Shown piece by piece: positions 26,883-40,611 of a stretch of 40,611 nucleotides of DNA. A program made the position numbers and the translations under genes. Source of the DNA: Bordetella parapertussis (GTDB taxonomy: Bacteria > Pseudomonadota > Gammaproteobacteria > Burkholderiales > SG8-39); NCBI GenBank assembly GCA_945897475.1, contig CAMDFL010000019.1, forward strand, positions 1 to 40,611, in the 5' to 3' direction. The notes below the pieces were generated by a model, which saw nothing but the letters and a program-made list of their open reading frames with translations, searched no databases and was not told the DNA's origin. How positions within the stretch are numbered: the first letter of the stretch is position 1; each line of letters begins with the position of its first letter.

Positions 26883-26903
26883 TTGTTTAACGATGTCGCG
26901 CCA

Positions 26904-29900
26904 ATGTCGCATTTTCTAACGCTGAGCGGGGGGCAAGCCCTCTCTGAGTTTCGGCTCGCAAAACTCAACTCACGGATAAGTGAGTTTGACCGCGCCACGC
27001 GCATCACAGGTGCGCAGTACTGGCATTTTGCTCAAGCTGATTCAGAGCCAGCCCAGGCTTCTATGCAAGTTTTGCATCGGCTGCTTCAGTATGGCGACGC
27101 GTCCACAACCGCAAAACAAAATGGCGATATGCTGCTGGTGGTGCCGCGCATCGGCACTATTTCTCCTTGGTCATCCAAGGCCACCGACATCCTGCACCAG
27201 TGTGGCTTGGGCGCGGTGAGGAGAGTTGAGCGGGGCATCGCGTATTACCTTGGCGGCACGGGCGGCTTGGGCAGCACGCAGCGCGCCGGCATCATGGCGC
27301 TGCTGCACGATCGCATGACTGAAACTATTTTAAATGCCCTTGATGACGCGCAGGCGCTGTTTCGCCACGTTGAACCGAGGAAGTTGGGCAGCATTGCCTT
27401 GAAAAAAGATGGCGTAGGGGCGCTGCAACAGGCCAACGCAGAGATGGGCTTGGCGCTGTCGCCCGACGAAATCGACTATCTGCGAGATCTTTTTCAGGGC
27501 GAGGGCCGCGATCCGACCGATGTCGAACTCACCATGTTTGCTCAGGCCAATTCCGAGCATTGCCGGCACAAGATATTCAATGCCTCGTGGATAGTCGATG
27601 GTATTGCGCAGGAAAATTCACTTTTCGGAATGATCCGCCACACGCACCAGCAGCATCCCAAGGGAACAGTGGTTGCGTATTCCGACAATGCCGCGGTGAT
27701 GGAAGGTTGTGGTGTCGAGCGTTTCGCCCCCGACACCGCCGGCAGATATCGGTACGAGCAGCAACTAACTCATACATTGATGAAGTGCGAGACGCACAAT
27801 CATCCGACTGCGATATCTCCTTATCCTGGTGCGGCCACCGGTTCGGGTGGCGAAATCCGTGATGAAGGCGCCACCGGACGAGGCGCCAAGCCCAAGGCGG
27901 GTTTGTGTGGGTTTTCGGTGTCGAACCTGCGTATTCCAGGCTTTGAGCAAGCCTGGGAAATCACCGAGGGCAGACCTGCTCGGATTTCATCTGCATTGCA
28001 GATCATGCTGGATGGTCCGGTCGGTGCAGCCTCTTTCAATAACGAATTCGGACGCCCCAATCTCAACGGATATTTTCGCTGCTTTGAGGCGCGTATCGAC
28101 GGCGCGGTGCGCGGCTATCACAAGCCTATTATGGTCGCGGGCGGCATAGGCAATATCGACGCGCGCCATTCGTTCAAGGCGGAGGTGCCTGTAGGCTCAT
28201 TGTTCATTCAACTGGGCGGGCCTGGCATGCTGATCGGAATGGGCGGCGGCGCGGCCTCCAGCATGGATACCGGCGCCAATACCGAAGATCTTGATTTCGA
28301 TTCGGTGCAACGCGGCAATGCCGAAATACAGCGTCGCGCCCAGGAGATTATCGATCGCTGCTGGCAAATGGGCGCGAGCAACCCGGTGCTTTCTATCCAT
28401 GATGTGGGAGCGGGCGGCATATCCAATGCGCTGCCGGAAATCGCGCACGGGGCCGGGCGCGGAGCGCGCATCAATCTACGTGCGCCGCCCAACGAGGAGT
28501 CGGGCATGAGTCCGCGCGAGATCTGGAGCAACGAGGCGCAGGAGCGCTACATGCTTGCGATCGCGCCGGAGTCGCTCGATGAGTTCGATGCCATGTGTCG
28601 GCGTGAGCGCTGCCCCTATGCGGTGGTGGGGCAGGCGACCGGAGATGACAGGTTGCGCGTTGAGGACCCGCATTTTGGCAATGTGCCGGTGGATATGAGT
28701 CTTGCGGCGCTTCTGGGCAAGGCGCCGCGCATGACTCGCGATGTCACTACTCGCGTTCGTCAACTTGTGCCTCTGTCGCTTGATCGAATGGATTTGCAGG
28801 AGGCCTGCCACCGCGTGCTTCGCTCGGCCACCGTGGCTAACAAGAACTTTCTCATCACAATAGGTGATCGCACCGTAGGCGGCTTGTGTTCGCGCGACCA
28901 GTGTGTCGGTCCCTGGCAGGCGCCGGTGGCTGATTGCGCCGCGACTTTGATGAGCTTTCAGGGCTATTCCGGCGAGGCCTATGCCATGGGCGAGCGCACG
29001 CCTCTGGCGCTGATCGATGCGCCTGCCTCCGGTCGCATGGCGGTGGGCGAGGCGCTCACCAATATCGCCGCCGCTCCGATTGGCGATCTTGGCCGCGTCA
29101 AGCTCTCCGCTAACTGGATGGCCGCTGCCGGTTACCCCGGCGAGGACGCGGCGCTCTATGAAACGGTGCGCGCTGTGGGTCTGGAGTTATGTCCGAAGCT
29201 GGGCGTATCGATTCCTGTGGGCAAGGATTCCTTGTCGATGCGCACCACCTGGAACGAGGGCGGCACGCCGCGAGAAGTAGTCTCGCCGGTGTCCCTGATT
29301 GTGTCGGCTTTCGCGCCCTGCGAGGACGTTCGGCGCGTGTTGACGCCGCAACTGGTGACCGACGCGGGGACCACCGATCTCATCCTCATCGACCTGGGGC
29401 GAGGCCGCAACCGGCTTGGCGGATCGATGCTGGCGCAGGTATTCAATCAGTTCGGCGATGTAGCGCCCGATCTCGATGATCCGGAAGAATTCAAAGCCTT
29501 TTTCGGCGCGATCCAGATCTTGGCAGGCGAGGACGTGATACTCGCCTATCACGACCGCTCCGATGGAGGTTTGTTCGCAAGCGTATGTGAAATGGCGTTC
29601 GCCGGACACCAGGGGGTCACACTTAACCTGGACCTGCTGGCCTACGATGCCGAGGCGCACGACGTCGATGGCAACGAGCGCAAACCCTCGCTGATGTATG
29701 GGCGCGACCAGGATCGCGTGCTTGCGGCATTGTTCGCCGAAGAACTGGGCGCGGTGATTCAGGTGCGCAGCGTGGATCGCAACAGGATTCTTGGGCGATT
29801 GCGTGAGGCGGGTTTGTTCGCCTTTTGGGTCGGATCGCCTAATAACGAGGACGAGATTCGCCTGGTTCGAAACGCGAAGCCGGTGTTTGCCGAATCGCGC

Positions 29901-30854
29901 ACGGCCCTGCAGGGCATTTGGTCGGAGGTCAGTTATCGGATGCAGGCTCTGCGCGACAACCCGGAGACCGCGCTTGAGGAATTCGAGTGCATCGCCGAGC
30001 GAACCGAAATCGGCTTGCATTCAAAGCTCAGCTTTGACCAGAACGAAGATATTGCGGCAGCGTTTATCGGCGTGCATTTAATTGGAAATGCGCGTCCAAA
30101 AATTGCGATTCTGCGCGAGCAAGGTGTCAATGGTCAGCTTGAGATGGCCGCGGCATTCGACCGCGCCGGGTTTGAAGCGCACGACGTGCATATGAGCGAT
30201 ATCATCGAAGGGCGTTTATCGCTGGCTGATTTCAAAGGTTTCGCCGCCTGCGGCGGGTTTTCGTTTGGCGATGTATTGGGTGGTGGCGCCGGCTGGGCGA
30301 AATCAATTTTGTTCAATGAACGGGCACGCGCCGAGTTTGAAACGTTTTTTGCGCGCGCCGACAGCTTCGCCTTGGGCGTCTGCAACGGCTGCCAGATGAT
30401 GAGTCAATTGCGCGAAATGATTCCTGGAGGTGCGCATTGGCCGCGCTTCGTGCGCAACCGCTCCGAGCAGTTCGAAGCGCGCCTGGTGATGGTGGAAGTC
30501 GCGGAAAATCCCTCGCTGTTTTTCTCCGGCATGGCCGGCAGCCGCATGCCCATCGCGACCGCACATGGCGAGGGACGCGCATTGTTCGATGTGAAAGGCG
30601 CGCGCGAAAAAGCAGTAGTTACCATGCGCTACGTCGATGGCGCGGGCAAGGCCGCCGACAAATACCCCGCCAATCCCAATGGATCACCGGATGGCATCAC
30701 TGGCCTCACTACCGCCGATGGGCGTTTCACCATAGTCATGCCGCATCCCGAGCGCGTATTCCGGACGGTTCAGCTTTCATGGCATCCGCGCGAGTGGCTT
30801 GAGGACAGCCCCTGGATGAGGATGTTCCGCAATGCACGTAAGTGGGTGGGGTAG
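26904..30854 (+). CDS. purL: Phosphoribosylformylglycinamidine synthase (large, single-chain form)
   Basis: [44 protein letters not shown]-terminal glutaminase [15 protein letters not shown] and MPHPERVFR. Confidence 0.97.
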
Positions 30855-31122: not shown

Positions 31123-32511
31123 TTAAATGCAGCTCGGCGATTTTGTCGCCGGGCGGTCCAAATCAAGGAACCCCACGTGCAAGCCTGGCTATCCGCGCGA
31201 CTACCGCGACTGGTCAATGTGCGCCCCGATGAAGTTGGAGCGCTGGTCTGGGCATTTCTGTATTTCTTTTGCCTCTTGTCTTCGTACTATATCTTGCGGC
31301 CATTGCGAGATGAGATGGGCGTTGCCGCCGGTGTTTCTCAATTGCAGTGGCTATTTACCGCGACTTTCGTCGTGATGCTTGCCGCGGTGCCGGTGTTTGG
31401 CATGCTGGTGGCTCGTTTCCCTCGGCGGCGCTTCGTTCCCTGGGTGTACTGGTTTTTTATTGCCTGCATCCTGTCGTTTTTTGGTCTGTTGCAAATCGAG
31501 GAATGGCGGGTTCCCGTTGCTCGTGCTTTTTTCATATGGGTGAGCATTTTTAATTTGTTCGTGGTCACGGTGTTCTGGGGGTTTCTGGCCGATCTGTTCA
31601 GTTACGAGCAAGGTAAGAGACTATTTGGATTTGTCGCTGCGGGGGGGACGGCGGGTGCATTGCTCGGGCCTTCGATCACGGCAGCTTTGGCCTTGCCTTT
31701 GGGTCCAACGAACCTGTTGCTCATTTCGGCTTTGTTTCTTGTGGGTGCGACGCAATGCGTGCACGGGCTGCTGCGCACCAGTCAGGGCCGGGCGAGCGAT
31801 GCCGATGCGAAACTCTCAGGCGGATCAGGCGCGGGAGAGGTGATTGGCGGCGGACTGATGGCCGGTTTTACCGAAGTGATGCGTTCACCGTTTTTGCTTT
31901 TGATCTGCGCGCACGTGCTGTTGCTCGCGCTCACTAATACGTTTCTGTATTTTCAGCAGGCCTCGATTGTCGCCGGAGCATTCGACAGCCCGGCTGAACG
32001 CACACGCGTGTTTGCCTTGATCGATCTTTCGGTGGGCGTGGTCACGCTCGTGGTCCAGTTGACACTCACTGGGCGGATATTGTTGCGCTATGGCGCCGGG
32101 CCGGCTTTGGCTTTGTTGGCGCTGGTGACCATGGCCGGGTTTGCTGCGCTGGCATTGGCGCCGGTGCTTGTCGCGGTCATCGCGTTTCAAGCCGTAAAGC
32201 GCGCGACCGAATTCGCGGTCGCCAATCCGGCAAGGGAAACGCTTTTTACTGTGGTCAGCCGTGAGCAGAAATACAAAGCTAAAAGCTTCATCGATACCGT
32301 AGTGTTTCGCGGCGGCGATGCCTCAAGCGGCTGGCTCTATACCGGATTGCGGGGGCTGGGCATGGAACTGGCCAGCATTGCCTGGCTGACGGTGCCGATA
32401 GCGGCGCTCTGGGCGGTTTTACTATTGCATTTGGGAAAGATGCAGGTAAAACTTGCGGAACAAAGAATTGCAGGACAGGAAAATAAACAGGGGAAGGTAC
32501 ATGAAGCGTAG
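31120..32511 (+). CDS. MFS-fold transporter related to the NTP/NDP exchange (Tlc/NTT) group
   Basis: 12-TM pattern; FCLLSSYYILRPLRDEMGVAAG, FVVTVFWGFLADLFSYEQGKRLFGFVAAGGTAGALLGP, REQKYKAKSFIDTVVFRGGDASSGWL. Exact start uncertain. Confidence 0.75.
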   Translation: MLNAARRFCRRAVQIKEPHVQAWLSARLPRLVNVRPDEVGALVWAFLYFFCLLSSYYILRPLRDEMGVAAGVSQLQWLFTATFVVMLAAVPVFGMLVARFPRRRFVPWVYWFFIACILSFFGLLQIEEWRVPVARAFFIWVSIFNLFVVTVFWGFLADLFSYEQGKRLFGFVAAGGTAGALLGPSITAALALPLGPTNLLLISALFLVGATQCVHGLLRTSQGRASDADAKLSGGSGAGEVIGGGLMAGFTEVMRSPFLLLICAHVLLLALTNTFLYFQQASIVAGAFDSPAERTRVFALIDLSVGVVTLVVQLTLTGRILLRYGAGPALALLALVTMAGFAALALAPVLVAVIAFQAVKRATEFAVANPARETLFTVVSREQKYKAKSFIDTVVFRGGDASSGWLYTGLRGLGMELASIAWLTVPIAALWAVLLLHLGKMQVKLAEQRIAGQENKQGKVHEA

Positions 32512-33466
32512 CGATGAATTGAACACGGTCCGGACCATGACGCGCAAGGAATTCCTCCGGCTATCGGCTGGCGCCGCGGGCGCGCTTGTCGCGGGCAGCT
32601 TGCTCGGGCAGGCAGGCCTGGCTCTGGCGGCCGAGCGTCCGGTGTTGCGGCGGCCCATTCCTTCGACGGGCGAGATGCTGCCGGTGATCGGCGTCGGCAC
32701 GGCGGTGGTTTATGAAATTGAATCCTCGGATGCGAAGTTTCCGTTGCTGGTGGATTCGGTAAAAACCTTTTTAGAGAACGGTGGCACTCTGATCGACACC
32801 TCGCCCACCTATGGCCGGGCGGAGAAGAATCTGGGCGAAATTTTTCGCAGAACCGGACTTCGCAAGCAGGCGTTCCTTGCCACCAAGATCAGCACCACCG
32901 GCGAGCAAGCGGGCATCAATCAGGTGGACACGGCGATGCGCGACATGGGCACCGATCGCTTCGATCTTCTGCAGGTGCATAACATCCGCGACACCACTAC
33001 GCATTTGCGCACCATCCGGCGACTGAAGGACGAGGGCAAGACGCGCTACGTCGGCATAACCACCTCGTTCGACAAGGACTATGAGCAGTTCGAGCAGATT
33101 ATGCGCAGGGAACGCTTAGATTTCATTCAGATCGACTATGCCCTGGACAATCGCAATGCCGAGGATCGCATCCTGCCGCTGGCTCGTGATCGCGGCATGG
33201 CGGTGATGATCAATCTTCCCTTCGGACGTGGGCGGCTTTTCAAGGTCTCGCAAGGCAAGGCCCTGCCGTCTTTTGCCGCCGAGATCGATTGCACCAGCTG
33301 GGCGCAGTTTTTTATCAAATTTCTTCTGGCCAATCCCGCGGTGAATGGCGTCATTCCGGGCACTGACCGTCCTGAATTCGCCATCGACAATCTGAATGCG
33401 GCGCGGGGACGCATACCAGATGCGAAGATGCGCGAGCAGATGATCAAATTCTGGGAAACCATTTAG
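32501..33466 (+). CDS. Aldo/keto reductase with Tat-like signal peptide
   Basis: MTRKEFLRLSAGAAGALVAGSLLG signal; IDTSPTYGRAEKNLGEIF, DLLQVHNI and GVIPGTDRPEFAIDNLNAARG AKR motifs. Overlaps the upstream gene by 11 nt. Confidence 0.87.
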   Translation: MKRSDELNTVRTMTRKEFLRLSAGAAGALVAGSLLGQAGLALAAERPVLRRPIPSTGEMLPVIGVGTAVVYEIESSDAKFPLLVDSVKTFLENGGTLIDTSPTYGRAEKNLGEIFRRTGLRKQAFLATKISTTGEQAGINQVDTAMRDMGTDRFDLLQVHNIRDTTTHLRTIRRLKDEGKTRYVGITTSFDKDYEQFEQIMRRERLDFIQIDYALDNRNAEDRILPLARDRGMAVMINLPFGRGRLFKVSQGKALPSFAAEIDCTSWAQFFIKFLLANPAVNGVIPGTDRPEFAIDNLNAARGRIPDAKMREQMIKFWETI

Positions 33467-33509
33467 CCACTTACGGGCTAAGTGTTGACAGTTCTGGCGA
33501 AGAACCAGG

Positions 33510-33774
33510 GTGGACGTGGCCGAAAGCATGGCTCTGCGGCAGATTCCAATGACGATGCAGGATTGGCAGTCTCGCTTGAACCGGTTCGTCGAAGCGACAG
33601 ACCGGAAAGTTCTACAAGATGCCGGTAAGATGGGTGCCGAGATCGCCAAGAGCTTTTGCCGAAAGCGAGTTCGAGAAATATCGCATCATGCAAGACCGGT
33701 TGTTTGAGAGCGATTTCGGCAAGGTGATCAAACGCATCGAGGCTGAACACAAGCCTGGCTTCGATGGGAAGTAA
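33510..33774 (+). pseudogene. C-terminal remnant of a RhuM-family (virulence RhuM) protein, frameshifted
   Basis: VDVAESMALRQIPMTMQDWQSRLNRFVEATDRKVLQDAGKMGAEIAK then, after a frame change, AESEFEKYRIMQDRLFESDFGKVIKRIEAEHKPGFDGK*. Matches the RhuM C-terminal pattern (...PMTMQDW...NAGKVS.E.A...E.EFEKYR..QD..). Confidence 0.78.
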
Positions 33775-33901
33775 GGAATGGCCGATCTGAATACGCCATT
33801 CTCACCACTGAAATCTCTCGCGCCACCTTTTAGGTGGCCGACAGCGGTACGCCGCCACTACTCAAAGCTCGCAGGAAATATTAAAATCCTGTTACATCCA
33901 C

Positions 33902-35704
33902 ATGGAGAAAGTCATGTCCCAAACCACGCCTCCTGGCGTCGACAATTACTGGAATGAATACGCCGCCGACGAGTGGTCGGACGCGCTGGTGGCCTCGATG
34001 AAGCTGGGCGGCATCGACCAGCTCTTTTTTGTCTCTGGCTCCGAGTCCGCGTTCCTGCAGGAAGCCACGGCCAAGGCTGCCGTGAAGGGCACACCTGCGC
34101 CCAAGCTCATCACCATGATTCACGAATCGGTGGCATTGAACGCGGCGCTGGGCGCCTCAATGGTGACCGGTAAGCCCACGGCGACTTCCTCGCACGTTGA
34201 TGTCGGTACTTTGCACTACGGTGGCGCTATTCATACCGCGTGGCGCGGCGGTTATCCAGTGCTGATTACGGGTGGAACCGGCCCGCGTGCCTTTCCTGGC
34301 TCCATGCGCGGATCGCGCGGTTCGCCGGTGCAATGGCAGCAGGAGCCGCGCGATCAGGCGGAGATCGTGCGCCAGTTCACCAAGACCGACCATCGCTTGG
34401 AGCACATCGACAATCCGGGGCTGATTGTCAGCCGCTTGTTGCAGGTCGCGATGAGTGAGCCGCGTGGCCCGGTGTACCTGACTATGCCGCGTGAAACGGC
34501 GATGTTGCCGCTGCCGGGAAAGATTCGTTTTCCGACGGTGCAGCAGTTGGGTGTTGCGCGTCCCATCTCGCCTGACCAGGACGATGCAAAGGCAATTGCG
34601 CAGTGGCTAGTCAAGGCGCAGAACCCAATATTGTTTACGGAACGCGTCGCCCACGATCCTGAGGCGATGGCGGAGCTCATCAAACTTTGCGAGTTGCTCG
34701 CCATCCCTGTATCTGAGTCCTCCAACTCCGACCGAATGAATTTTCCGACCACTCATGCTCTGTACGGCACCGGGCCGAAATCCAGTGAAGCCGACGTGGT
34801 GTTGGTGTTCGAGAGCGCTGCGCCGTGGATACCCGGCGTGGGTTCACCGCCGGCGGATGCCAAGATCGCCTGGGTTTCGATCGATCCGGTTTATTCGCGT
34901 CTGAAGACTCAGGAGTTCCGCGCGGATCTTTGGATACCGGCGACCGCGTCACGCACCGCCCGCGCCCTATTCGAAGCCGCGACCTCGATACTGGACAAAT
35001 CAGACATGTCGCGCATCGCCGAGCGTCGCAAGCGTCTGGAGGACAAAAAGCGTCAGATGATCGCGAAAGCCGAGGAGCTGGCGATAGAAGCGGGTAAGTC
35101 AGGCAAACCCACAGGACGTTGGGCAGCCTACCAATTGGGCAAGCTGCTCGAACCCGATGCCATCGTATTGAACGACGGCATTTCCAACGGTGGATTCGTG
35201 CACACGTATTCTCGGCGCACCCAGCCCGGAACCTATTTCCGCAGCGGCAGCAGCACTGGAGGTTGGGGTTCCGGCGCGGCGTTCGGTATAAAACTCTCGC
35301 GTCCGGATCAGGACGTGGTGCTGGCAACCGGGGACGGCTACTACTCGTTTGGCACTCCGATGGCGGCATTGTGGGCCGCGCGCCATCACAAGTCGCCATT
35401 CCTCACCATGGTGTTCGTCAATGGCAGCTACAGCACCGGCACCACCGAACTGCGCCAAGCCTATCCCGATGGTTACGCGGTGAAGCATGGCGACTATGCT
35501 GGTGGCAGCTTTGATCCACCGCCGAATTTCGCCAAGTATGCCGAGGCGGTTGACGGTTACGGTGAATATGTGACCGACGTCGAGCGTGTAGGCCCTGCCT
35601 TGCAGCGGGGTTTGGAAGCGGTGCGTAGAGGTTCGCCGGCTGTGGTGGCTGTGCGCGTGCCTGGTCCCTTGCAGGAAGGCATGGCGAACCCATCCGCGAA
35701 GTAG
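33902..35704 (+). CDS. Thiamine diphosphate-dependent enzyme (acetolactate synthase-like superfamily)
   Basis: ITMIHESVALNAALGASMVTGKPTAT (catalytic Glu region), central domain, and ThDP motif ATGDGYYSFGTP...VFVNGSYSTG. Confidence 0.9.
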   Translation: MEKVMSQTTPPGVDNYWNEYAADEWSDALVASMKLGGIDQLFFVSGSESAFLQEATAKAAVKGTPAPKLITMIHESVALNAALGASMVTGKPTATSSHVDVGTLHYGGAIHTAWRGGYPVLITGGTGPRAFPGSMRGSRGSPVQWQQEPRDQAEIVRQFTKTDHRLEHIDNPGLIVSRLLQVAMSEPRGPVYLTMPRETAMLPLPGKIRFPTVQQLGVARPISPDQDDAKAIAQWLVKAQNPILFTERVAHDPEAMAELIKLCELLAIPVSESSNSDRMNFPTTHALYGTGPKSSEADVVLVFESAAPWIPGVGSPPADAKIAWVSIDPVYSRLKTQEFRADLWIPATASRTARALFEAATSILDKSDMSRIAERRKRLEDKKRQMIAKAEELAIEAGKSGKPTGRWAAYQLGKLLEPDAIVLNDGISNGGFVHTYSRRTQPGTYFRSGSSTGGWGSGAAFGIKLSRPDQDVVLATGDGYYSFGTPMAALWAARHHKSPFLTMVFVNGSYSTGTTELRQAYPDGYAVKHGDYAGGSFDPPPNFAKYAEAVDGYGEYVTDVERVGPALQRGLEAVRRGSPAVVAVRVPGPLQEGMANPSAK

Positions 35705-35739
35705 GCGGGAAACCTACAGAGATTGTCGTTGCCTGGTAT

Positions 35740-35787
35740 GGGTACAATTTACCAACGGGGCACGTCACCGACAGGGCACAATTTGCC
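35740..35787. promoter_or_regulatory. Pair of 14-bp imperfect palindromes upstream of the MetE-like gene
   Basis: GGGTACAATTTACC (35740-35753) and GGGCACAATTTGCC (35774-35787), 34 bp apart. Confidence 0.5.
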
Positions 35788-35881
35788 TTCGGCCCGGAGG
35801 CGGCTTTCCCTTAGAATCACGCCCTCATTCGAGCCAGATCTACGCGAGTTACGACTCATAGCCAACAATGGAGTTAAGCGC

Positions 35882-37111
35882 ATGCAAAGAAGCACCAAGC
35901 GAATTTTGACCTCTCACGTCGGCAGTCTTATTCGTCCGCCTGAAGTGCTGGCCCATCTTCGCGCCAAACAGACCGGCAAGGCGTTTGACCGGGCGGCGTT
36001 TTCCCGAACGTTGAAAACCACAGTTGGCAAGGTGGTCAAGCAGCAGGCCGAGGTCGGCATCGATATTCCCAGTGACGGTGAGTTCGGCAAGGGCATCAGT
36101 TGGTCGCAGTACGCGCTGGAGCGTCTGTCCGGATTCGAGCGCAGGAAAGTGAAACCGGGCACCCCCGATCCCTTCGCGCGTGGAGTGGATCGCGAGCGCT
36201 TCGCCGAGTTCTATGCGGAGTTGGATGCTCGCGACGGGCGTGCCACGGTGAGCGATTCGGTGTGTGTGGGCCCGATCACCTATACCGGCATGAATGAATT
36301 GCAGCGCGATATCAGGAATTTCAAGGCGGCGCTCGCAAAGCAAGGTGTGAAGGAAGGATTTCTGCCGGTGGCGGCGCCATCGAGCGTGATCCCCGATCGC
36401 AAGAACGAGTACTACTCAAGCGACGAGAAATGCCTGGAGGCGATCGCCGATGCGATGCGCGTCGAATACAAGGCCATCGTTGATGCCGGTTTGATCGTGC
36501 AATTGGATGATGCGCGCGCTGCGGTCACCTATGACCGGATGGTGCCCCCCGGTACCCTGAAGGATTTCCGTAGGTGGGTGGGCATGCATGTCGAGGTATT
36601 GAATCACGCCTTGAGAGGCATTCCCGCGGACCGGGTGCGTTACCACGTGTGCTGGGGAAGCTGGCCCGGCCCGCACGTGACCGACGTGCCCCTGAAGGAC
36701 ATCGTTGATCTGATCCTGAAGGTCAATGCCGGGGCCTATGTGATTGAAGGCGCAAACCCGCGCCACGAGCACGAGTGGCATGTGTGGGAGGGCGCGAAGA
36801 TGCCCGAGGACAAAATCCTCCTGCCTGGGGTCATCAGTCACGTCACCAATGTGGTTGAGCATCCGGAGCTTGTCGCCGAGCGCATTACGCGTTTGGCGAA
36901 GATTCTCGGTCGCGAACGAGTCATAGCCAGCACCGACTGCGGCTTCGCGCAAGGACCGTTCCATCGTCGCGTGCATCCCAGCGTGATGTGGGCCAAATTC
37001 GAGGCCTTGACCGCAGGCGCGAAGATAGCCAGCAAGGCCTTGTGGAGCGCGCCGCGCAGGACGAAGGCCACCACGGCTTCGAAGGTTCAATCGGTGAAAA
37101 AGCGGAATTAA
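35882..37111 (+). CDS. Cobalamin-independent methionine synthase II (MetE C-terminal-like) family protein
   Basis: TSHVGSLIRPPEVL, GIDIPSDGEFGKG, zinc-site regions YHVCWGSWPGPH and ASTDCGFAQG. Only the C-terminal catalytic barrel is present. Confidence 0.9.
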   Translation: MQRSTKRILTSHVGSLIRPPEVLAHLRAKQTGKAFDRAAFSRTLKTTVGKVVKQQAEVGIDIPSDGEFGKGISWSQYALERLSGFERRKVKPGTPDPFARGVDRERFAEFYAELDARDGRATVSDSVCVGPITYTGMNELQRDIRNFKAALAKQGVKEGFLPVAAPSSVIPDRKNEYYSSDEKCLEAIADAMRVEYKAIVDAGLIVQLDDARAAVTYDRMVPPGTLKDFRRWVGMHVEVLNHALRGIPADRVRYHVCWGSWPGPHVTDVPLKDIVDLILKVNAGAYVIEGANPRHEHEWHVWEGAKMPEDKILLPGVISHVTNVVEHPELVAERITRLAKILGRERVIASTDCGFAQGPFHRRVHPSVMWAKFEALTAGAKIASKALWSAPRRTKATTASKVQSVKKRN

Positions 37112-37162
37112 ACAACCGATTTAAGTGACAATTTAAGCTTGCAAAAAACAGGAAGTCAGTTC

Positions 37163-38167
37163 ATGAATTCTCATGTGGTTCGATGGCCCCGAATTAGTGG
37201 TCTGGCGGTACTTGCGGGCGTAGCACTGGTCGCTGGCGCGCTGTGGAGCTCCAGTTCCACGGCGCAGACCTATCCCATCAAGCTGATCCGCGTGATCATG
37301 CCGACGGCGCCGGGTAGCCCGCCGGATTACGCCTTGCGTGTACTGACCACCAAGATGAGCGAGGGCATCGGCCAGCCCATGATTGTTGAAAACCGGGGAG
37401 GCGCGGCCGGCACTCTGGGTGCGGCAGCGGCAGCCAAGGCCGCGCCCGACGGCTACACCCTCATGATGGGCAGCATCACCTCGCTATCTATCGGTCCGGC
37501 GCTGTATCCCAGCGCCGGGATCGATCCGGTGAAAATGTTCGCCCCTATCAGCCAGGTGGCCGTCGCTCCCAGCGTGATCGCGGTAAGCATCTCGCTGCAG
37601 GCAAACACAATGGGGCAATTCATCGATCTGATTAAAGCCAATCCCGGTAAATACAACTACGGTTCGCCCCCGCCCGGCAGCCCGCCGCATGTCTCAGGTG
37701 CCCTCTTTTTGCGGACTGCCGGCATCGACATGGTCCACGTGCCTTACGGCGATCCGGCCAAAGTTATTGCCGCGGTGATAAGCGGCGATGTGCACATGTT
37801 CATCGAGACCGTCGGTTCCATCGGCCCGCAGGTGAAGGCCGGCAAGATGCGCCTTTTGGCAGTAGCGGCGAACAAGCGCAGCCCGTTCGCACCCGATGTG
37901 CCCACCGTGGCCGAAACCGGTCTGCCGGCGTTCGAGTCGGGGAGTTGGTCGGGATTGCTTGCGCCCGCCGGGACGCCGGGTGCCATTATTGCCCGCCTCA
38001 ATGCGGAGACGCATCGCGGCGCCAATACTAAGGAAATGCGCGAGGTCATGGCGACACAAGGCGGCGAGGTGGTCTGGGGTACGCCTGAACAATTTGGCAA
38101 GCTGATCGCCGATGAGGCGGTGAAATGGGCCAAGGCGGTGGCGCTTTCCGGCGCGAAAACGCAATAG
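37163..38167 (+). CDS. Tripartite tricarboxylate transporter substrate-binding protein (Bug/TctC family)
   Basis: Signal peptide; YPIKLIRVIMPTAPGSPPDYALRVL, VENRGGAAGTLGAAAAAKAAPDGYTLMMG, FESGSWSGLLAPAGTP. Confidence 0.94.
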   Translation: MNSHVVRWPRISGLAVLAGVALVAGALWSSSSTAQTYPIKLIRVIMPTAPGSPPDYALRVLTTKMSEGIGQPMIVENRGGAAGTLGAAAAAKAAPDGYTLMMGSITSLSIGPALYPSAGIDPVKMFAPISQVAVAPSVIAVSISLQANTMGQFIDLIKANPGKYNYGSPPPGSPPHVSGALFLRTAGIDMVHVPYGDPAKVIAAVISGDVHMFIETVGSIGPQVKAGKMRLLAVAANKRSPFAPDVPTVAETGLPAFESGSWSGLLAPAGTPGAIIARLNAETHRGANTKEMREVMATQGGEVVWGTPEQFGKLIADEAVKWAKAVALSGAKTQ

Positions 38168-38198
38168 CAATCGCAAGAATATATATGAGGATATCGAC

Positions 38199-39149
38199 AT
38201 GAAGATCGCTGCAGCCATCGTTGCGGGAGTGTGCGCGGCGCTTTGTTTCGCTGTGCAAGCGCAAACGTTTCCGTCCAAACCCATACGCTGGATCATGCCT
38301 TTCCCTCCCGGCGGTCCCGCCGACGCAGCGGGCCGCGTGATTGCACCCAAATTCAGTGAGCGCATGGGCCAGCCAGTGATCATCGAAACGCGCGCCGGCG
38401 CTTCAGGCAACCTCGGCGCTGAAGTCGTGCTGAAATCCGCGCCCGACGGGTATACATTGTTTTATGCGATCTCCGGAATGGTGACCAACCCGGCCTTTGT
38501 CATAGGCAGCCCCGATCCCAGGGATTTCACCGCCATCGGCCTGTTCATGACCAGTCCGTGGGTGATTCTGACGAGCAATGCATTCACGTCCACAACGCTC
38601 GGTGATGTGCTCGCCGCAATCAAGGCCAAGCCCGGGTCGGTTAGTTGCGGCTCCTCGGGCGCCTTGCCCACAGTAGGCTGCGAACTGCTGCGTTATCACG
38701 CCAAAGCGGACATGATCATGGTGCTCTACAAGGGCAATGGCCCGGCCATGAACGCGCTGATGGGTGGAGAGGTGAATATTCTGTTCGACGCGGTCGCCAC
38801 AGCGGTCAACCAGGTGAAGGGGGGGAAGGTGAGAGCGGTGGCGACACTCAACCCGAAACGCGGCGGAATGGGCTTCCCGGAACTGCCCATTGCGGCAGAA
38901 ACGATACCGAATTTTATTTTCGAAGGCTGGCATGGCGTACTTGGACCGGGGGGCATGCCGCGCGACATCGTGTTGCGCATGAACCGCGAATTCAACGCGG
39001 TAATGGCCTCGCCCGAGGTGCAAAAGATTTTCATCCCGCAGGCTTTCCAGATCGTCAGCGGGCCGCCTGAGATGTTCTCGGATCGAATTCGTAATGAGAT
39101 GGCCATGTTTGGCAAGATCGCCAGCGACACCGGCATCAAACCGCAGTAG
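38199..39149 (+). CDS. Tripartite tricarboxylate transporter substrate-binding protein (Bug/TctC family)
   Basis: Signal peptide; FPSKPIRWIMPFPPGGPADAAGRVI, IETRAGASGNLGAEVVLKSAPDGYTLFYA, FEGWHGVLGPGGMPRDIV. Confidence 0.95.
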   Translation: MKIAAAIVAGVCAALCFAVQAQTFPSKPIRWIMPFPPGGPADAAGRVIAPKFSERMGQPVIIETRAGASGNLGAEVVLKSAPDGYTLFYAISGMVTNPAFVIGSPDPRDFTAIGLFMTSPWVILTSNAFTSTTLGDVLAAIKAKPGSVSCGSSGALPTVGCELLRYHAKADMIMVLYKGNGPAMNALMGGEVNILFDAVATAVNQVKGGKVRAVATLNPKRGGMGFPELPIAAETIPNFIFEGWHGVLGPGGMPRDIVLRMNREFNAVMASPEVQKIFIPQAFQIVSGPPEMFSDRIRNEMAMFGKIASDTGIKPQ

Positions 39150-39215
39150 CGAAATGCTGTTGCGTGACGCTTGCCTACACGGGCATCAAGCGGGAAAAAA
39201 TCAGTGGCAAGACAG

Positions 39216-39247
39216 TGGCGCAGGAATTTCGCCTGCGCCATTTTTTT
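39216..39247 (+). terminator. Rho-independent terminator
   Basis: TGGCGCAGG-aatttcg-CCTGCGCCA followed by T7. Confidence 0.88.
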
Positions 39248-39272
39248 CGTACAGTAATTATCAGGAGGCAGT

Positions 39273-40337
39273 GTGAGCACAGGCAGTTTTCCGGAGAGTC
39301 CGCTCGAGATCGGGATGTTCGATTGGGTCGAAGTCACGGGCGCGCCGCCCGCCGAGATTTTCGAACATAAGCTGCAACTGGCAGCGGCCGCGGACAAGGC
39401 GGGCTTCTATGCCTGGCAGCTTGCCGAGCACCAGGGAACGCCGCTGTCCATCGATGCATCTCCCTCGATATTGATCGCGGCAGCGATTCAGCGTACCAAA
39501 CAAATTCGCCTGGGCGCCTTAACCTGGTGCCTGCCCTGGTACAACCCCTACCGCTTTTATCACGAGATGTGCATGCTCGACCAGATGAGCGGCGGACGGA
39601 TCGATCTGGGTGTTGGGCGCGGCATATCACCTATCGAAGGGGCCTACCTTGGCATCGCCAATATTGAGGAGTCGCGTGAAAGATATCGTGAATTTCTGGA
39701 CATATTCATTGCCGCGAGCCAGACCGACAATCTCAATTTCAGTGGCAAGTACTACAACTACAAGGACGTGGAGCTGCACAACCACCTGGTGCAGAAACCT
39801 TATCCGCCATTGTGGTTTCCGAGCAGCGACAAGAACTCCATCGATTTCACGGCGAAACACGGCTATCACACCGTGCTCAATACCAGCCACCCCGAAACCA
39901 AAGCCCTGTACGCGCAGTACCGCGAAACCTGGGTGAAGCACCAGAGCGATGCTGGCAGGCACAACGCGCATGTCACGCATCCGCGCCTGGGTAAGAGCCA
40001 GCTGATTGTGGTGGCCGATACCGACGCCGAAGCCGAGAAAATTGGCTTGGACGCTTTTTCGGTGTGGCTCTCGCACATCAATCACCTGACCGGCAAGCAT
40101 GGCAGGCCGCCACTATTGCCGCGCCTAGATCCCAAGGACAAGGACTCGGTCACGCGCCTGGTGGTGGGGTCGCCCAAGACCGTGCTCGATATATTGGTCG
40201 AGTCGGTGCAGGAGACCACCATCAACTATCTCTTGCTGGTGTTCTCTTTCGGCAATCTGCGCCCCGAACATGCGATGAGATCCATGGAACTATTTTCCAC
40301 GGACGTCATGCCCAAGCTGAAAGCCGCCGTTAAATAA
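39273..40337 (+). CDS. LLM class flavin-dependent oxidoreductase (luciferase-like)
   Basis: GFYAWQLAEHQGTPLSIDASPSILIAAAIQRTKQIRLGALTWCLPWYNPYRFYHEMCMLDQMSGGRIDLGVGRGISPIE; GTG start with an AGGAGG SD. Confidence 0.93.
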   Translation: MSTGSFPESPLEIGMFDWVEVTGAPPAEIFEHKLQLAAAADKAGFYAWQLAEHQGTPLSIDASPSILIAAAIQRTKQIRLGALTWCLPWYNPYRFYHEMCMLDQMSGGRIDLGVGRGISPIEGAYLGIANIEESRERYREFLDIFIAASQTDNLNFSGKYYNYKDVELHNHLVQKPYPPLWFPSSDKNSIDFTAKHGYHTVLNTSHPETKALYAQYRETWVKHQSDAGRHNAHVTHPRLGKSQLIVVADTDAEAEKIGLDAFSVWLSHINHLTGKHGRPPLLPRLDPKDKDSVTRLVVGSPKTVLDILVESVQETTINYLLLVFSFGNLRPEHAMRSMELFSTDVMPKLKAAVK

Positions 40338-40486
40338 ACCTAAACTCGGAAAGCTTCAGAACAGGGAAAGAGCGGGGTTCCCTTTTTTCCCCTTGCCCCT
40401 ATCGCCCCGTTCCCTATTTCAAGAGAACGCACCAGTTTTCCGGTTCTATTTAAGGGAACGCTGCACGAATCGAACAGGCTCGGCGC

Positions 40487-40611
40487 TTAGGCCGGGAAGC
40501 CTGCCTTCACCCGACCAAAAAATGCGTCGCGTGAAGCGCTTGCCCAGCGGCGCAAGTCGACGAGATTCACGCCTACCAGTTGGCCGTTCCACTTCTTGAT
40601 CTGCCCGGCGA
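40487..40611 (-). CDS. C-terminal end of a probable metal-dependent amidohydrolase (truncated by window end)
   Basis: Minus-strand frame AGQIKKWNGQLVGVNLVDLRRWASASRDAFFGRVKAGFPA*. Pattern V.G..VK..G.LVGVDL..LR..A..SRD is typical of cytosine deaminase/AtzA-like C-termini. Confidence 0.55.
   Translation of the reverse strand, partial: AGQIKKWNGQLVGVNLVDLRRWASASRDAFFGRVKAGFPA

Follow-up and report, generated by a model that had tools for sequence, protein, structure and literature searches.

A probable patchwork of catabolic genes downstream of purL, and the apparently uncharacterised MetE-like protein that it contains

Background

Do five collinear genes at the end of a bacterial contig make up one degradative pathway, or have they come together piecemeal? 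The window analysed here spans all of contig C19, 40611 bases long, in a draft genome of 4.6 Mb (G000), whose closest kin among named records are betaproteobacteria not in culture. Downstream of purL, a transporter gene (MFS), and an aldo/keto reductase gene (AKR), the plus strand carries, in this order, genes for a thiamine diphosphate (ThDP)-dependent enzyme, a stand-alone barrel of the methionine synthase MetE type (the MetE-like protein), two TctC/Bug receptors (Bug1 and Bug2), and an LLM-class flavin-dependent oxidoreductase (LLM); the 3′ end of an amidohydrolase gene faces them at the window edge. The initial annotation had read these genes together as a single cluster for uptake and degradation of an organic acid or amide. 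Open reading frames and hidden Markov model searches (Pfam, NCBIfam), from which we took the gene identities, confirm that the five genes are real and collinear; neighborhood genes were called by codon scoring.

We conclude, with a probability of about 0.6, that what lies downstream of purL-MFS-AKR is not a dedicated pathway but a patch of common catabolic genes, variable and recently reshuffled; the single-pathway reading is largely refuted. The component that deserves separate study is the MetE-like protein, which we infer to be a zinc-thiolate methyl- (or alkyl-) transferase demethylating catabolic substrates onto homocysteine.

The locus differs between congeners

Alignment of the window by blastn with the same locus in two congeners, G002 and G001 (loci L115 and L116), reveals an MFS-AKR-MetE order common to all three genomes and considerable variation around it. 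Specifically, i) the 2.4-kb block that holds the RhuM remnant and the ThDP gene in the window is missing from L115 and L116, where the matched flanks are separated by 124 and 142 bp; ii) 3′ of the MetE-like gene, at the place taken by Bug1 in the window, both congeners carry a gene for a class II aldolase resembling 3,4-dihydroxyphthalate decarboxylase (PhtC-like, below the model cut-off, with the G001 copy assigned by sequence similarity); iii) the aldolase gene is followed by Bug2 in one congener and by LLM in the other, G002 having a 69% orthologue of Bug2 and no match to LLM at E<=1e-60, and G001 an 87% orthologue of LLM; and iv) the ThDP orthologue of G002 (83%) is located elsewhere, with no MetE neighbor. 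The set is thus not conserved even within the genus, and Bug2 and LLM vary independently of each other among congeners.

The most economical history would begin with an older AKR-MetE-aldolase-Bug2-LLM order, from which the window lineage would have gained ThDP and Bug1 and lost the aldolase; the RhuM remnant, which sits between AKR and the ThDP gene, may be the left-hand scar of the inserted block. No direct or inverted repeats of 8-9 bp or more flank the ThDP block in the stretches compared. AKR itself is found as 69-80% orthologues in two genera, g3 and g9, whose genomes show no or only remote MetE-like matches, and a functional tie between AKR and the cluster was rejected on these grounds.

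Because a terminator-like hairpin with a T run lies between Bug2 and LLM, the genes probably do not form one transcription unit. Window positions 39206-40312 align to L116, and the hairpin lies inside this stretch, conserved upstream of LLM in G001. Transcription would likely yield a ThDP unit, with or without MetE; a MetE-Bug1-Bug2 unit; and, behind the terminator, LLM by itself. The start of the MetE-like gene is best placed at an ATG preceded by GGAG (35882; residue numbers below are counted from 35885), and that of LLM is a GTG preceded by AGGAGG.

Gene neighborhoods in other genomes

Were the genes parts of one pathway, as first proposed, they should co-occur elsewhere, and largely they do not. 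Among 75 loci around 65-89% orthologues of the MetE-like gene in other genomes, a Bug gene is found near 15, an LLM gene near 5, and a ThDP gene near 2; the neighbors met most often are a LIV-type ABC importer, with one ATPase cluster present in 38 loci, and, in 28 loci, an M24 metallohydrolase. Together with the congener alignment, these counts led us to reject one conserved operon.

Nor does a pair of Bug genes say much. Orphan TctC/Bug receptor expansions are known in betaproteobacteria, and the present genome shows no difference from this ordinary case: receptors are very many, and no TctA or TctB gene is adjacent in the stretch read. A background sample of 40 stretches of 20 kb (800 kb) from the same genome, which excluded contigs known to hold MetE paralogues and so yields no MetE density, contains 49 Bug genes, or ~0.61 per 10 kb, about one every 16 kb. 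Extrapolation from this sample gives ~280 per genome, a very large expansion; a total of 491 Bug candidates was found in G000, and all 150 of those scored pass E<1e-60. Because Bug genes are so common, two neighboring Bugs mean little by themselves, and the pair was set aside as a weak sign of a dedicated uptake system, even though Bugs are ~threefold enriched near MetE paralogues. The two receptors, which would be periplasmic carboxylate receptors, had been called divergent; this holds for their sequences but not for their orientation, since Bug1 and Bug2 are co-directional.

The MetE-like protein: fold and active site

The zinc thiol-alkyltransferase fold attributed to the MetE-like protein in the initial annotation is supported, both by structure prediction and by conserved zinc and homocysteine residues. 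The AlphaFold2 model (mean pLDDT 91.7, pTM 0.90) finds as its best folds in Foldseek the MetE structures 1xpg and 1xdj (TM 0.70-0.71 on the query, with E values down to 3e-17 to MetE), together with MesD 3rpd (TM 0.76-0.78 on the target) and 1ypx (0.79), at 14-21% identity to solved structures. In E. coli MetE the zinc ligands are H641, C643, E665, and C726, and homocysteine is contacted by S433, E484, and D599 (PMC7857596). The corresponding ligands H254, C256, E288, and C352, which align to 1ypx and 3rpd, are kept throughout the 50 subfamily members examined, which come from Alpha- and Betaproteobacteria, Rhodococcus, and Pantoea; of the homocysteine contacts, E66 and D208 are present in 51/51 alignment rows and S14 in 48/51.

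The same 50 members all carry the signature E288-x2-N291-x2-H294-x-H296-E297 (R293 in 48 of them), which is absent from the MetE-type protein of locus L198 and, in the alignments, from 1ypx and 3rpd (MesD). Compared with the C-terminal barrel of MetE and the core methionine synthases MesA-D, the window protein has the same fold (TM 0.65-0.79), the same H-x-C...E...C ligands, and the same S/E/D homocysteine contacts, but it differs in this extra E-x2-N-x2-H-x-H-E signature and in occurring as several paralogues per genome in catabolic contexts; it differs further from MesD in 20% identity to 3rpd and in scoring far under every cut-off of the NCBIfam methionine synthase models, and from canonical MetE in matching the C-terminal half only. 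Because the N-terminal, folyl-polyglutamate-binding half-barrel is missing, we do not propose folyl-polyglutamate as the donor. Instead, with Zn2+ held by H254, C256, E288, and C352, homocysteine or a similar amino-thiol, bound and activated by S14, E66, and D208, would receive a methyl (or small alkyl) group donated by a catabolic substrate or carrier.

The genome encodes 17 MetE-like matches at E<=0.001, of which seven, the window copy included, are near full length at >=41% identity. Because a full MetH is encoded in the same genome, these paralogues are not needed for methionine. Public records annotate the family as cobalamin-independent methionine synthase II family; we found no description of this MetE subfamily, or of this gene set, in openly licensed papers, and papers on O-demethylation in N. 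aromaticivorans make no mention of a methionine-synthase-like gene. The MetE-like protein belongs to a widespread and apparently uncharacterised enzyme family that keeps the zinc and homocysteine site.

Genomic contexts of MetE-like homologues

The catabolic flavor suggested for the locus by the initial annotation is supported by relatives of its genes, which adjoin Rieske dioxygenases, PhtC-like class II aldolases, ABC importers, and O-demethylation genes. Homologues with ~40% identity are plasmid-borne in Croceicoccus marinus and Novosphingobium pentaromativorans US6-1, together with metF, folD, purU, and protocatechuate 4,5-dioxygenase genes (ligAB), and a LigM/DesA-type aminomethyltransferase-family protein (the type assigned by annotation and context) is encoded at both loci. 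In two roseobacters the homologues are accompanied by a hisD-like gene, an alpha/beta hydrolase, and RraA, and one Rhodococcus plasmid copy adjoins metE.

Several other arrangements were seen in passing. On the two sphingomonad plasmids (L246, L248) the MetE-like gene is followed by an NTF2-like gene and then an IclR gene. At L105 and ~27 more Rhizobiales-type loci the orthologue has an M24 creatinase/prolidase-like gene on one side and often, on the other, a LIV-type ABC importer; ectoine hydrolase and DddP are among the models hit by these M24 neighbors, in every case below cut-off. At L095 and L106 the orthologue is directly followed by genes for a dodecin-like small protein and a D-amino-acid-dehydrogenase-like flavoprotein (both identified by eye). 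Finally, at L198 and L199 a 59-62% orthologue of LLM adjoins a MetE-type gene, which at L198 belongs to a different subfamily without H-x-H-E and has a Rieske pair downstream.

The other genes of the locus and the contig edge

The ThDP enzyme passes the PRK08327 family cut-off (479 versus 456 bits). The initial annotation had likened it to acetolactate synthase, and neither this identity (PRK05858, 119 bits versus a cut-off of 587) nor sulfoacetaldehyde acetyltransferase, Xsc (TIGR03457, 96 bits versus 676), could be upheld. Its closest solved relatives are benzoylformate decarboxylases, cyclohexane-1,2-dione hydrolase, and BbmA (8X3X), with which it shares a three-domain ThDP fold and the activating Glu (Glu75), although these relatives score low (85 bits with a single sequence, 120 bits with a profile). 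Its invariant His98 falls, in the alignment, on the active-site His of benzoylformate decarboxylase. Because of the closest structures and this alignment, a 2-oxo acid or diketone is a more likely substrate than acetolactate synthesis is a function, and the enzyme may catalyze C-C cleavage of the benzoylformate decarboxylase or cyclohexanedione hydrolase type. LLM, which would be an FMNH2-dependent monooxygenase, shares the bacterial-luciferase barrel with MsnO8 and LLM_2I7G but falls in a separate group (94 and 92 bits versus cut-offs of 167 and 462).

Extension past position 40611, which had been recommended, was achieved through an overlap: window positions 40463-40611 are identical to positions 1-149 of contig C281, and a search of the assembly finds this 149-bp stretch only at these two contig ends. 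The gene facing LLM, described before as a probable amidohydrolase C-terminus, does belong to the Amidohydro_1/PRK08204 family and does face the others, but it is not intact. Of a 463-residue relative, only residues 370-463 (~94 residues) have a counterpart here, with an in-frame stop upstream of them; the gene is thus a remnant, and with it falls the argument for an amide substrate. Past the remnant, C281 encodes the beta and alpha subunits of a Rieske ring-hydroxylating dioxygenase and then a further Bug. The closest models for the Rieske pair are benzoate, anthranilate, and phenylpropionate dioxygenase, with every score below cut-off; at ~26% identity the pair was rejected as orthologous to the Rieske genes beside LLM orthologues, and several of the 40 stretches sampled from the same genome contain Rieske genes as well. 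Several genes of the locus may serve aromatic-acid breakdown, not necessarily of one compound.

Table 1. Features of the downstream part of the window (contig C19).
Feature	Position	Strand	Evidence and remarks
purL	26883-30854		purL domains detected; conserved flank with MFS and AKR
MFS / NTP-exchange-like transporter	31180-32511	+	PF07690 E=3e-11, PF03219 E=3e-7; conserved flank downstream of purL; aligned in both congeners
Aldo/keto reductase (AKR)	32501-33466	+	PF00248 E=3e-29; conserved flank
2.4-kb block (RhuM remnant and ThDP gene)	33457-35859		blastn; both congeners without block
RhuM-family remnant, frameshifted	33524-33775	+	PF13310 E=1.3e-8 (first frame); continuation in other frame read by eye
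ThDP-dependent enzyme, 600 aa	33902-35704	+	TPP_enzyme_C E=6e-19; NF006203/PRK08327 479 bits, cut-off 456
Stand-alone MetE-type barrel, 409 aa	35882-37111	+	PF01717 35 bits, cut-off 21
TctC/Bug receptor 1 (Bug1)	37163-38167	+	PF03401 E=9e-60
TctC/Bug receptor 2 (Bug2)	38199-39149	+	PF03401 E=6e-40
Intrinsic-terminator-like hairpin and T run	39214-39242	+	11 pairs, 7 G-C
LLM-class flavin-dependent oxidoreductase (Bac_luciferase)	39273-40337	+	PF00296 E=4e-40; GTG start
Amidohydrolase remnant, 3′ end	40490-40611	-	continues in contig C281 across 149-bp overlap

Alternative explanations

One dedicated pathway, in which the Bugs would take up an organic acid, LLM would oxygenate it, the MetE-like protein would take off a methyl or alkyl group, leaving a product for the ThDP enzyme to cleave or decarboxylate, could draw on the co-directional MetE, Bug1, and Bug2 genes with their short gaps, on a ThDP gene beside a MetE-like gene on contig C174 of genome G047 as well as at a contig edge of the present genome, and on LLM orthologues beside a MetE-type gene in G079 and G074. 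We nevertheless think it quite improbable, given that neither congener has ThDP at the locus and one has no match to LLM, that a terminator-like hairpin precedes LLM, that ThDP and LLM are near so few of the 75 orthologous MetE loci, and that in G079 the MetE-type neighbor of LLM comes from a different subfamily. Five considerations weigh against the patchwork and the role we assign to its MetE-like component: around other MetE paralogues of the same genome we counted 15 Bugs in 74.7 kb (~2.0 per 10 kb) where ~4.6 would be expected; ThDP or LLM genes do adjoin MetE-type genes at a few other loci (L134, L184, L198, L199); the polarity of the change, gain in the window versus loss in both congeners, is read from two congeners and the RhuM scar; the C19-C281 join depends on an assembly overlap; and both the thiol acceptor and the methyl donor of the MetE-like protein are deduced, the conserved homocysteine contacts being compatible with another thiol or reaction. 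Tandem Bugs are not independent, so we claim no significance for their enrichment; because they exceed expectation, however, the MetE-like genes can be placed in catabolic surroundings, and some functional association of ThDP, LLM, and Bug genes with them is possible. A variable patch of common catabolic genes remains our preferred reading of the locus.

For the MetE-like protein itself, one might suppose a thiol other than homocysteine to be alkylated, as by epoxyalkane:coenzyme M transferase, a stand-alone-barrel zinc thiol-alkyltransferase of the MetE superfamily, or a C-S lyase acting in organosulfur degradation. Fold superfamily and zinc site are the same, and in genus g25 the LLM orthologues have an NMT1/SsuA-like binding protein as neighbor; yet that SsuA match reaches 46.7 bits against a cut-off of 163.5, no coenzyme M genes were seen among the neighbors, which were read by eye, and the near-invariant S14, E66, and D208, which in MetE hold the amino and carboxyl groups of homocysteine, would not be needed for a thiol like coenzyme M. 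We consider this proposal unlikely; the comparison with the coenzyme M transferase was made by description. That the protein is a further core methionine synthase of the MesA-D kind, supplying methionine, would fit the public annotation, the retained zinc and homocysteine residues, and the Rhodococcus plasmid copy that adjoins metE; it accords poorly with seven near-full-length copies in one genome with full MetH, with catabolic surroundings, and with scores far under all the NCBIfam cut-offs, and we hold it to be rather improbable. A transferase demethylating catabolic substrates onto homocysteine is the role we prefer.

Conclusions

Taken as a pathway, the cluster offers nothing new and is probably no unit, which should spare effort on joint substrate screens. 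The MetE-like subfamily is another matter: from Alpha- and Betaproteobacteria to actinobacteria and haloarchaea its members carry a methionine synthase annotation, yet they are multi-copy beside catabolic genes, and in the present genome MetH already provides for methionine synthesis. We speculate, at long odds, that proteins with the E-x2-N-x2-H-x-H-E signature are an expanded set of folate- and B12-independent zinc demethylases (or dealkylases), each paralogue with a methylated natural substrate of its own, such as a methoxyaromatic, a betaine, or a sulfonium compound, whose methyl group it would pass to homocysteine, with His-x-His-Glu as donor site or second metal site. If so, many public annotations would be wrong, a route from plant-derived or osmolyte methyl groups to methionine would have been missed, and catabolism would feed the methionine cycle directly.

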